From Comamonas sp. B21-038 (GTDB lineage: Bacteria > Pseudomonadota > Gammaproteobacteria > Burkholderiales > Burkholderiaceae_C): a stretch of DNA of 64,000 nucleotides. The stretch covers positions 2,914,001-2,978,000 of the forward strand of contig NZ_CP092462.1 in assembly GCF_022387135.1 (NCBI RefSeq), in the 5' to 3' direction. The notes under the pieces were generated by a model, which was given only the letters and a program-made list of their open reading frames with translations, had not been told where the DNA came from and did not search any database. A program made the translations under genes and the position numbers. Within the stretch, counting starts at the first letter, position 1. Each line of letters starts with the position of its first letter. Shown piece after piece: positions 24,451 through 59,103 of this stretch.

Positions 24451-26364
24451 TTATGAAATTTTTGTTTCTGCGGGGCGTGGGACCTTGATCTGCGCCTTGA
24501 AACGCTCCTTGAGCATTTCGTAATACGCCAAGGTTTCAGCATTGGCCTGGTAACGCTCGAACTCCTGCTTTTGGCGCAGGCGCATCTCGGCAGAGTCTTC
24601 GCTACGCGGCACGACCTTGTTCACGCGCACGATGGTGTAACCATCGTTGCCCAGGTCCACACCCACCCAGGAGGCAGCCTCGCCGACCTTCGCATGCATG
24701 GCAGCATTGAGCACCGCAGGCACCTGGCCCTTGGCATCCTGGCGCGACACGACAATCGGTGCTGCCAGCTTGGCGCCTGCAGCGTCGGCCTTCCAGGCTT
24801 CCAGCTTGGCTTGCGCGTCCTGGCGGGCGAGTTCTGCAGCCTTCTGCGCTACGTACAGGTCATGGGCCTTGGCCTTGACTTCCTCGAACGGCAGAATGCG
24901 TGCATCGAAGTGCTCCACCACACGACCCGAGGCCAGGGTGCTGGGCGCCACTTCAATGGCTTCGGTGTTGCGCTTGTTCTGCAAAGCGTCGCTGGAGAAC
25001 AGCGCTTCCAGGAAGGTTGCGTTGGCCAGGGCGCCCGTCGCTCCAGGGGCGGCCGTGCGGGTGACATGCTCGGCCTTCTGGATCTTCAGACCCAGCTTCT
25101 CAGCCACAGGCTGCAGGCTATCGGACTGCTCGAACACCATGTTGGAGAAGGTCTCGGCGACTTCGGCGTACTTGCGCTGCACCTGCTGGGCCAGCACCTC
25201 GGTCTCGATCTTCGCGCGCAGCTCTTCAAAGCTGGGGGTACGCGGGGTCTTGATCTCACCCATCTTGATGATGTGGAAGCCGTACTCCGTGCTGACCAGG
25301 TCGCTGATCTCACCAGTCTTCATTGCAAAGGCGGCGTCCTCAAAAGGCTTGACCATGTCGCCCTGCTTGACCAGACCCAGATCACCGCCGCTGTCGCGCG
25401 AGCCGGTGTCTTGCGAATTCTTCTTGGCCAGCTCGGCGAATTGGGCTGGGTTGGCCTTGGCTTCGGCCAACAGCTGCTCGGCACGCTGCTTGGCTTTTTC
25501 ACGGTCTGCTGCCGACATGGAGGCTGGCGCGTCAATCAGGATGTGGCTGATGCGGCGCTGTTCCTTGTCCATGAAGCGGCTCAGATTTTCCTTGTAGTAG
25601 GTACGCAGATCGTCTTCGCTGGGCTTGATCATGCTCTTGACCGCTTCGGCGTTCAGCACCACATACTCGATCGTGGACTGCTCCTTCTGGCGGAACAGCT
25701 CCTGGTTGCTCTTGTAGAACGCTTCCACATCGGCATCGGTGGTCTTGACCTGGGACGCATAGTCCTTGGCTGCGAACTGCGCCAGCTGGATCTCACGCTG
25801 CTGGTAGAGCGCGTCGACCGCCAGCTGGGTCTGTGCATCGGTCGCAAAGGCCGTGTTGGACACACCGCCGAGTACCTGGCGCGACGCAATGTCGCGGCGC
25901 ATGCCTGCTTCAAAGCCTTCGGGCGTCATGCCCTGGGCACCCACCAGCGCGCGGTAGGCATCGACGTCCAGCGAGCCATCGGGTTTTTTCAGCGCAGCAA
26001 TCTGCGGAATTTCCTGCAGCGCGCGGACCAGTGCGGCATTGTCCACCCTCAGGTGCATTTTTTGCACCGCGGCGTCAATCACCTGGTCACGCACCATGCG
26101 CTCCAACGTCAGATAGCGGGCATCCGGGCCGTCCATCCACTTGGCGTCCATGTTGGGGTCTTGCTGGCGCATGCGATCCGAGGCAACGCGGTGCGCATTG
26201 TCCCAGTCCATCTGCGTAATGTCTTTGCCATTGACTTTGGCGACCACCGGGCTCTTTTCGGTGAAGTAGTTCTGGTTCACTCCCACCAAAACAAAAGACA
26301 GAATGATCAGCAAGAACAGCGGATACATCAGCACCTTGGAGTACTTGCGGATGGTTTCAAACAT
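24451..26364 (-). CDS. ppiD: Periplasmic folding chaperone/peptidyl-prolyl isomerase PpiD
   Basis: 637 residues. A single membrane anchor near residues 12-32 (VLMYPLFLLIILSFVLVGVN) is followed by a SurA-like N-terminal domain. A parvulin domain lies at about 265-365 (ISHILIDAP, KKNSQDTGSRDSGGDLGLV, VSTEYGFHIIKM) and a second long helical part follows. PpiD helps proteins leaving the Sec translocon fold in the periplasm. A ribosome site AGGAAAG precedes the ATG at 26364. A strong terminator structure lies only about 20 bases before the ATG, which leaves no room for a promoter between. Confidence 0.95.
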   Translation of the reverse strand: MFETIRKYSKVLMYPLFLLIILSFVLVGVNQNYFTEKSPVVAKVNGKDITQMDWDNAHRVASDRMRQQDPNMDAKWMDGPDARYLTLERMVRDQVIDAAVQKMHLRVDNAALVRALQEIPQIAALKKPDGSLDVDAYRALVGAQGMTPEGFEAGMRRDIASRQVLGGVSNTAFATDAQTQLAVDALYQQREIQLAQFAAKDYASQVKTTDADVEAFYKSNQELFRQKEQSTIEYVVLNAEAVKSMIKPSEDDLRTYYKENLSRFMDKEQRRISHILIDAPASMSAADREKAKQRAEQLLAEAKANPAQFAELAKKNSQDTGSRDSGGDLGLVKQGDMVKPFEDAAFAMKTGEISDLVSTEYGFHIIKMGEIKTPRTPSFEELRAKIETEVLAQQVQRKYAEVAETFSNMVFEQSDSLQPVAEKLGLKIQKAEHVTRTAAPGATGALANATFLEALFSSDALQNKRNTEAIEVAPSTLASGRVVEHFDARILPFEEVKAKAHDLYVAQKAAELARQDAQAKLEAWKADAAGAKLAAPIVVSRQDAKGQVPAVLNAAMHAKVGEAASWVGVDLGNDGYTIVRVNKVVPRSEDSAEMRLRQKQEFERYQANAETLAYYEMLKERFKAQIKVPRPAETKIS

Positions 26365-26384
26365 CGTCTAACTTTCCTGAGGAC

Positions 26385-26414
26385 AAAAAAAAAGGCGAAC
26401 CCTCATTCGCCTTT
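26385..26414 (-). terminator. Intrinsic terminator in the leader of ppiD (possible attenuator)
   Basis: Minus strand: AAAGGCGAA / TTCGCCTTT stem with a 6-base loop, followed by nine T. The T-run ends 20 bases before the ppiD start and overlaps nothing else. Either it ends an upstream RNA, with ppiD reached by read-through, or it acts as an attenuator. Confidence 0.75.
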
Positions 26415-27102
26415 ATTCGGTTTTCAGCAAGGGATGCGGCGGCAGACGGTCAGACGTAGGCATCTGCTGCTTGCAACGGCGGTTTTCCCATTGCATATCA
26501 ATCAGATACAACGTCAACTGACATCTGCTCCCCACCCCCTGTCAAATAGGGCGTGCAACATGCGTCTTGGCAACGCATGAACGTCGAAACAGCAAGTGTA
26601 CCGCGAAAGAGTTTTTCCTCCCTATGAGGGCAAGGGGCGCGTTAGGGAATACAGGATTTTTGCCCGCACCTGGGACCGCGAGGCGGCGGATGCGCAGCAC
26701 CTCCCCCCTCTTTTAAGAGGCAGCACTAAGGAGAAAAGCACTGGAGGCGTCCCAGGCCGGGCTGGACCCAACCGCCCGTCTGACAGGTTGCAGACTGCAA
26801 CGACGCGCATGCCAAGGTGGCGCGGCAGACGCCCCATCTGGCCATTGAAGCTCGGGAACAAAGGGAGGAAAGGAGATACCGGGTTCTAGGGCGCAGGCAC
26901 TGGAGCGGCTTTGGCGGATGGCCGGGCGCATGCGTACCAACGCTGCAGACTGCGCCATGGCGGCCATGCGGCGGGACGGCGATAACGAGCCGCCCCGCCC
27001 TGGCTGATGGCCGAGACTCTACGCCCAGGCAAGTGGGTAAGCAATAAACTCGGCCGGTATGGGCTGATTCGAGCTGACCCTGCAGAGGGTGAACAGACAA
27101 AG
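26415..27102. other. Unassigned stretch between the ppiD leader and tRNA-Val terminator
   Basis: About 690 bases with no recognisable protein gene or tRNA. Several short open frames exist on both strands, but none has a known domain. On the minus strand it lies between two strong terminators (27103-27133 and 26385-26414), so a separate transcript, perhaps a non-coding RNA or a long ppiD leader, could start here. I see no clear promoter match. Confidence 0.5.
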
Positions 27103-27133
27103 AAAAAACCCCTTAGATCACTCTAAGGGGTTT
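27103..27133 (-). terminator. Intrinsic terminator after tRNA-Val
   Basis: Minus strand: AAACCCCTTAGA / TCTAAGGGGTTT stem, 4-base loop, six T. It closes the hupB-tRNA-Val unit. Confidence 0.88.
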
Positions 27134-27149: not shown

Positions 27150-27225
27150 TGGTGGGTGCTGACGGGGTCGAACCGCCGACCTACGCCTTGTAAGGGCGCC
27201 GCTCTACCAACTGAGCTAAGCACCC
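27150..27225 (-). tRNA. tRNA-Val (anticodon TAC)
   Basis: The minus strand gives a 76-base cloverleaf with acceptor GGGTGCT / AGCACCC, D-arm AGCTCAGTTGGTAGAG, anticodon loop CTTACAA (TAC) and T-arm GGTTCGACC, with CCA encoded. It sits 16 bases after hupB, and the two are likely transcribed together. Confidence 0.97.
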
Positions 27226-27241
27226 CACCTGATAACCGAAA

Positions 27242-27514
27242 TTAGTTCAACGCATCTTTCAATGCCTTGCCTGGACGGAACTTAGGCACCTTGGCTGCCT
27301 TGATCTTGATCGCAGCGCCGGTACGTGGGTTACGGCCGGTACGCGCAGCGCGCTTACCAACGGCAAAGGTACCAAAACCTACCAGAGAGACTGTACCACC
27401 TTTTTTCAAGGTTTTCTTCACTGCATCAATGGTGGACTCCAGCGCACGAGCCGCAGCAGCCTTGGAGATATCAGCATTGTTAGCAATGTGCTCAATGAGT
27501 TCAGTTTTATTCAC
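27242..27514 (-). CDS. hupB: Nucleoid protein HU (beta type)
   Basis: 90 residues, the exact size of HU. It starts [20 protein letters not shown], has [25 protein letters not shown] in the DNA-clasping arm (the conserved Pro is present) and ends [14 protein letters not shown] bends and compacts DNA. It is followed by tRNA-Val and a terminator. Confidence 0.97.
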
Positions 27515-58638: not shown

Positions 58639-58730
58639 GGTTTTGCTGTCCTTCAATGACCTGAATCAGGGCGCGCGCAAGCCCATCGCAGCACCCCACG
58701 TACAGACGCAGGGCGACACAAGGTTTGCGC

Positions 58731-58882
58731 GATTCTCTTTCATCCGGACTGTGACCGTCGGCTCTGGCATCGCACCAGATCTGCTGACCTTGCGCAGCCG
58801 TAGGCCTTGCAAGCGCTCGCGGGCTCCTGGCTCCTCAAAGCCAGATACCGCCGGTGGGGAATTGCGCCCCGCCCTGAGAATA
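58731..58882 (-). promoter_or_regulatory. FMN riboswitch (RFN element) upstream of ribH
   Basis: The minus strand contains the conserved blocks TTCTCAGGGCGGGG and CCCCACCGGCGG at the 5' side, AGCCCGCGAGCG in the middle, and GGTCAGCAGATC, AGAGCCGACGG and AGTCCGGATGAAAGAGAA at the 3' side. This is the complete RFN aptamer. Behind it CGCGCAA and TTGCGCG arms (58674-58680, 58725-58731) could form the expression hairpin. It should turn ribH off when FMN is high. Confidence 0.95.
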
Positions 58883-59103
58883 ACGCTGAGCCGCTGCCGG
58901 CAAGGCCCTGGAGGGCCCAAGCCTGCTGCAGCTCGCCGGCCGATTGTAGAGGGGCTGCGATACAAACACCGTCACCCAGGTTTTTGGTGCGCAGGAAACT
59001 TGTTATGGATCTAGTTGTGCAGCTTTAGCCCGCCTATCTCCATTACCGCGCCAGCGCTCTACACTGCGGTAGCTAAGCGCTCCATCCATCCCCCGTCCCC
59101 ACC

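Follow-up and report, generated by a model that had tools for sequence, protein, structure and literature searches.

The window, by which we mean the whole 64-kb stretch of DNA analysed, carries on its minus strand pgsA, a hupB-like gene, a tRNA-Val(TAC) gene, a terminator (terminator A), about 690 bases without a recognised gene, a second hairpin (hairpin B), a ppiD-like gene and a tRNA-His gene, in that order. The hupB-like gene, with HU as its best family match (27242-27514 including the stop codon, minus strand), matched the HU-beta model NF007945 with 127.6 bits, under the cut-off of 157. The 637-aa product of the ppiD-like gene (24451-26364, minus) had its best NCBIfam match in NF008054 (PRK10788) with 214 bits, under the curated cut-off of 493, and was 96% identical to PpiD of C. 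koreensis. The tRNA-Val(TAC) gene occupied 27150-27225 with terminator A directly behind it at 27106-27133, and the tRNA-His gene (24390-24315) lay just downstream of ppiD, all on the minus strand. The same strand of the gap contained a conserved non-coding block of 125 bases (26537-26661), situated 120 bases upstream of hairpin B and present only in the C. koreensis clade, followed by a fast-changing stretch (26424-26536) which in other members of the clade holds a relic of the tRNA-Val 3' half. Elsewhere in the window an FMN riboswitch was located at 58728-58885 (minus; 104.9 bits).

Hairpin B (stem-loop at 26414-26391, minus strand) has the stem AAAGGCGAAT/GTTCGCCTTT and the loop GAGG, with -12.7 kcal/mol when folded alone. 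On the minus strand, AAAGGCGAA/TTCGCCTTT formed nine Watson-Crick pairs plus a closing T-G pair, scored by a relaxed hairpin scan as 10 pairs with a loop of 4, and the run of nine T (26393-26385, minus) shares its first three T with the stem. The first-pass annotation had described a 9-bp stem with nine T 20 nt before ppiD, a ribosome site just after it and a lack of room for a promoter between them, and all three points were confirmed: stem and T-run span 26385-26414 (minus), the T-run ends 20 nt before the ATG (26364), the leader (26365-26384, minus) carries an AGGA Shine-Dalgarno at 26378-26375, and a full sigma-70 promoter is too big for this 20-nt gap. With a strict criterion (a perfect Watson-Crick stem of at least 9 pairs, then at least 7 T in 9), six hairpin positions were obtained in the window, hairpin B among them and both strands of 27106-27133 counted as one, and none comparable appeared in 20 dinucleotide shuffles; the relaxed scan was not significant by itself (11 in the window vs. 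a mean of 8.2 in shuffles). The pattern AAGGCGAA-N3..8-TTCGCCTTT occurred at a single site in the whole 5.18-Mb genome.

The DNA upstream of ppiD was compared in 64 relatives (L076, with only 55 upstream bases, was excluded). In 52 of the 64 a hairpin of the same type was present no more than 85 nt from ppiD, its stem ending 24-29 nt before the ATG, and in many of these relatives tRNA-Val ended about 10 nt before the hairpin, which thus appears there as the terminator of the hupB-tRNA-Val unit. To judge from this arrangement, hairpin B is ancestrally the terminator of hupB-tRNA-Val and hence would not originally have been made for ppiD. It has the stable stem-loop and the immediate T-run of an intrinsic terminator and, in the relatives, closes a transcription unit, a place now taken in the window by terminator A. 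Twelve of the 64 relatives had no hairpin near ppiD, three of them (L062, L083, L088) displaying one farther off, behind the tRNA, and at nine loci no such hairpin was found either near ppiD or behind tRNA-Val, which amounts to complete loss in some lineages. The hairpin is therefore dispensable, being absent near ppiD from those 12 relatives and, in its exact form, from 21 of 120 genera. At 20 of the 64 loci (two with fewer than 220 bases) the available DNA upstream of ppiD contained neither tRNA-Val nor hupB, which may be taken as a first sign of foreign DNA entering at the tRNA. Among lineages without a hairpin near ppiD (L067, L068, L069, L094), the promoter scan detected a TAGAAT box about 50-85 bases before the gene in three of these four, which may be a promoter of its own for ppiD. 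Two other loci were particular: in Comamonas kerstersii (L064) hupB and ppiD were separated by three tRNA-Val(TAC) genes in tandem, and a record titled Pantoea sp. 18069 (L056) showed a Comamonadaceae-type ppiD locus and is probably mislabelled or contaminated.

tRNA-Val and hairpin B are not adjacent in the Comamonas clade to which the window belongs. In Comamonas sp. JUb58, another member of this clade, the order was hupB, tRNA-Val, terminator A, integrase, about 59 kb of DNA, a tRNA 3' half, terminator A, the conserved block, hairpin B and ppiD, with hupB, the intact tRNA-Val and one terminator A at one end of an element readable at both ends. The integrase domain starts about 800 bases behind tRNA-Val; with the duplicated tRNA 3' half, the integrase beside the intact tRNA and mobile genes between the two, JUb58 thus displays the marks of integration at a tRNA gene. 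Since a second tRNA 3' half and a second terminator A are present, the element supplies a tRNA 3' end and a terminator of its own. The approximately 59-kb element (L402 4604-4679 and L128) also encodes a polyvalent protein of 3490 aa with matches to DNA methyltransferase and DarB-like antirestriction. C. odontotermitis (L085) carried phage genes, for a tail protein, an endolysin, an Rz-like spanin and a structural protein, in front of a copied tRNA 3' half and the hairpin; an identical endolysin is encoded on a 38-kb viral contig. The DNA just before hairpin B aligned with the 3' half of tRNA-Val in five of the six clade members (0 of 500 shuffles each); the window's own relic beside hairpin B was not significant (p 0.126), and among other displaced lineages a relic was significant at four of 15 loci (L058, L061, L065, L072) and not at the other 11. 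The window's insert between tRNA-Val and hairpin B had no match among the phages searched. From these data we infer that an older JUb58-like element parted tRNA and hairpin in the ancestor of the clade, gave the tRNA its terminator A and then decayed, and the insert in the window presumably arose as in JUb58. A terminator-bearing element that integrates at a tRNA can, on this evidence, rewire the leader of a neighbouring gene.

After this separation the hairpin has hardly changed. Across the clade's six members, invariant columns numbered 36 of 39 in hairpin plus flank and 20 of 20 in the aligned ppiD leader, the sequence from 26423 to the ATG being almost invariant with the loop included; the corresponding figures were 121 of 278 (43.5%) for four-fold sites of ppiD in the same members and 34 of 119 columns for the stretch just upstream of the hairpin. 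The tRNA is displaced in the C. testosteroni group too, and there all 14 arm positions were invariant at seven loci vs. 29 of 204 four-fold sites. The same 14 of 14 were found in the group L046/L056/L065 (p 0.00012) and in the pair L058/L061 (p 0.15), two loci too close to tell. Loss of the tRNA therefore does not free the hairpin, and the stranded hairpin B appears to be still under purifying selection in the ppiD leader. A ppiD-linked role is plausible because the hairpin is conserved beside ppiD where the tRNA has moved away. The block upstream (26661-26537), with 86 of 127 alignment columns invariant in the clade, was present in the six clade members only and missing from the remaining 47 of the 53 genomes of the genus that were searched; ten further matches to the block query in the genus cover only hairpin and leader. 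A coding role of the block was rejected, there being no frame open in all six members; no convincing sigma-70 site was common to the six, and no match was obtained in the plasmids searched.

Conservation of the stem extends well beyond the genus. Within the family, 236 of 299 genomes (108 of 126 genera) carried the pattern GGCGAAC-N3..6-GTTCGCCTT, mostly in one copy, as did 28 of 100 genomes sampled across the order; ppiD was found at 47 of 50 loci selected by this pattern, a selection that allows no rate to be derived. Because a pattern search selects what it finds, an additional sample was drawn by ppiD protein alone, with one genome per genus. It comprised 120 loci out of 129 ppiD matches. 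Left out were G000, G002, G085, G202 and G204, which belong to the window's genus or duplicate a genus already represented; G124 and G186, with an incomplete match or at the end of a contig; G091, with an incomplete match; and G095. The exact 7-pair stem GGCGAAC/GTTCGCC occurred within 450 bases upstream of ppiD in 99 of these 120 genera, and tRNA-Val lay upstream of the gene in 112; two more loci (L319, L324) had the same arms with a longer middle and another (L323) had one changed pair. Among the 99 genera with the exact stem, at least 5 T were present among the next 9 bases in 91, the arms were separated by 4 (70 genera), 5 (24), 3 (3) or 6 bases (2), and 59 different loops were counted, the flanks also varying freely. 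The stems of terminators are usually free to change their letters while pairing is kept. At the same loci, the tRNA-His terminator, used as a control, shared its commonest 7-mer in only six of 68 hairpins (68 of 101 tRNAs with a hairpin), vs. 74 of 83 behind tRNA-Val (83 of 112 with a hairpin within 90 bases). The tmRNA terminator, examined in 30 genomes that were closer relatives from the upper part of the ranking rather than a random draw (29 with a full tmRNA, 21 with a hairpin), had its commonest 7-mer in three of 21 hairpins, vs. an exact ppiD hairpin in all 30 genomes. RNase P was unusable as a second control, with a hairpin behind it in only two of 30. One terminator, usually present in single copy, thus keeps the letters of its stem in 99 of 120 genera, whereas the others tested turn over. 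A plain terminator would not explain these frozen letters; the control terminators drift. A stem kept while loop, spacing and neighbours change implies a constraint beyond termination. A literature search of titles and abstract openings recognised neither the hairpin nor the frozen stem in print.

In other families, 20 of 24 genomes were retained, each from a different family (G042, G049, G052 and G053 were left out, among other reasons for weak, partial or late-starting matches). Seven presented the exact stem, six a variant and seven none, and the hairpin was often located behind tRNA-Val and tRNA-Asp. Paired substitutions were seen in three variants (GGCGAAT/ATTCGCC twice, GGCAAAC/GTTTGCC once) and wobble pairs in two. 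Changes of these two kinds, together with the variable loop, favour an RNA stem over a DNA operator.

The distance from the stem to the start of ppiD was at most 45 bases in 52 of the 99 genera with the exact stem, and therefore too short for a full promoter behind the T-run. By what route ppiD is transcribed is the question raised by this layout, about half of the hairpin-bearing genera having no room for a promoter behind the stem. The best sigma-70 scores upstream of hairpin-bearing ppiD genes were under those of shuffled sequence and slightly under those of hairpin-less loci (158 vs. 26 loci, p 0.042), which lends slight support to read-through. In the window the 690-base gap could house a promoter; the transcript would still have to cross hairpin B. 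In our view ppiD is transcribed either by partial read-through or from a promoter that overlaps the hairpin. The earlier proposal that the gene lives on read-through from upstream is partly supported, the overlapping promoter being the other way.

Taken together, hairpin B is probably an ancestral tRNA terminator doubling as a fixed barrier before ppiD, which we consider the most likely reading. It would be an intrinsic terminator at which, in most of the family, the hupB-tRNA-Val transcript stops and which RNA polymerase has to pass as its last obstacle ahead of ppiD. In compact layouts ppiD would be reachable only via partial read-through or via a promoter overlapping tRNA or hairpin, so that the hairpin would keep ppiD transcription at a fixed, low level. 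The unit would have been split in the window's clade by a tRNA-integrating element, with tRNA-Val acquiring terminator A from the element and its former terminator, B, being left in the ppiD leader, where purifying selection would still act on it. Read directly in the DNA are the hairpin, its ancestral position, the element with duplicated terminator in a relative, the continuing conservation and the frozen stem; from these we infer termination in vivo at hairpin B and production of ppiD by read-through.

A bolder proposal, tentative and in our opinion unlikely, is that GGCGAAC/GTTCGCC represents an order-wide RNA element whose letters are read by a dedicated RNA-binding factor, or by alternative pairing of its arms with a fixed partner, and which would set the amount of transcription going on from hupB-tRNA-Val into ppiD. 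The adjacent tRNA-Val could be such a partner, CGAAC of the 5' arm facing GTTCG of the T-loop, an idea conceived post hoc. If true, a stem read by its letters would couple a periplasmic chaperone to the synthesis of a tRNA or of a nucleoid protein.

A regulated attenuator, in which ppiD would be controlled by a signal, envelope stress for example, that makes the leader fold either into hairpin B or into an antiterminator, seems quite unlikely. Of this reading, suggested in the first-pass annotation, the terminator form and the lack of promoter room held, and the control by envelope stress found no support: no antiterminator stood out beyond shuffled upstream sequence, no open frame for a leader peptide was shared by the six clade members, and no sensor or other Rfam family was matched in the ppiD leader region. 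Forbidding hairpin B cost 3.2-8.9 kcal/mol in the six leaders vs. shuffled-upstream means of 6.3-10.9 (sd 1.9-2.6). In five of the six the cost fell about 0.6-1.6 sd short of the shuffled mean, a difference inside the shuffle spread. The best partner of the 5' arm was CACTTGCT in four of six leaders when folding began at TACACT, but CTTTCGCT, also in four of six, when it began 20 bases earlier; a weak fold competing with hairpin B is possible according to these models. The hairpin kept beside ppiD after loss of the tRNA and the conserved block upstream would suit an attenuator, as would the promoter of E. coli ppiD, which answers to sigma-32 and Cpx according to a passage of PMC2956729. Across the family, however, it is a tRNA gene rather than a sensor that precedes the hairpin.

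It is doubtful, more so than attenuation, that hairpin B ends a trans-acting RNA (a tRNA 3' trailer or an RNA of the block) with ppiD merely incidental. The terminator form, the single copy and the frozen stem would fit such an RNA; the window's 236-nt leader is strongly structured with hairpin B included (z -5.35), and one tRNA trailer from E. coli, mentioned in a passage of PMC7815308, is known to act as a sponge. Against it, structure without hairpin B was uneven in the clade (z -3.70 in the window, -0.49 to -2.81 in the other five), the consensus fold had no clear strand preference, the block is confined to the window's clade, and loops and tail are free to vary, hence offering no conserved unpaired seed. 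The middle part of the consensus fold was reached by 0 of 200 and 2 of 200 column shuffles on the two strands, and the whole fold by 26 of 200 and 22 of 200; a long structured leader RNA is not claimed, the middle part beating shuffles on both strands and the whole not doing so.

Equally doubtful is a promoter overlapping the hairpin as the sole explanation, such that ppiD transcripts start inside it and escape while those from upstream stop there. The clade's near-invariant stretch between 26423 and the ATG, with the loop inside it, and the 52 of 99 genera without room for another promoter behind the stem would agree with it, but no sigma-70-like site stands out at the hairpin, and loop and flanks are free to vary across genera. 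Least probable of all is a DNA operator, a palindrome bound by a dimeric protein controlling ppiD: it would account for frozen arms, usually at one site per genome, with exactly 4 spacer bases in 70 of 99 genera, but not for spacers of 3 to 6 bases, for the T-run behind nearly all stems or for wobble variants (GGCGAAT with GTTCGCC; GGTGAAC with GTTCGCC) that keep an RNA stem and not a perfect palindrome.

The reading of hairpin B as an ancestral terminator and fixed barrier can be set beside several known systems. In E. coli, ppiD lies downstream of hupB, as it does in Comamonas. The E. coli gene has its own promoter, described in a passage of PMC2956729 as responding to sigma-32 and Cpx, whereas in Comamonas a tRNA and a terminator lie between the two genes and no promoter is recognisable. 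Hairpin B resembles 5'-leader attenuators in being a terminator directly before a ribosome site, and differs from them in that no significant antiterminator, leader peptide or sensor was found in its leader. With the intrinsic (Rho-independent) terminators of tRNA genes it shares a GC-containing stem, a short loop, a T-run and, in most of the family, the place just behind tRNA-Val; in contrast to the tRNA-His and tmRNA terminators tested, its stem is frozen across genera, and it sits in the leader of the next gene. Finally, the split locus of JUb58 has the duplicated tRNA 3' half, the integrase by the intact tRNA and the mobile genes between them that characterise tRNA integration sites of phages and islands, but here the terminator of the element replaces the old terminator of the tRNA, which is left stranded before ppiD.
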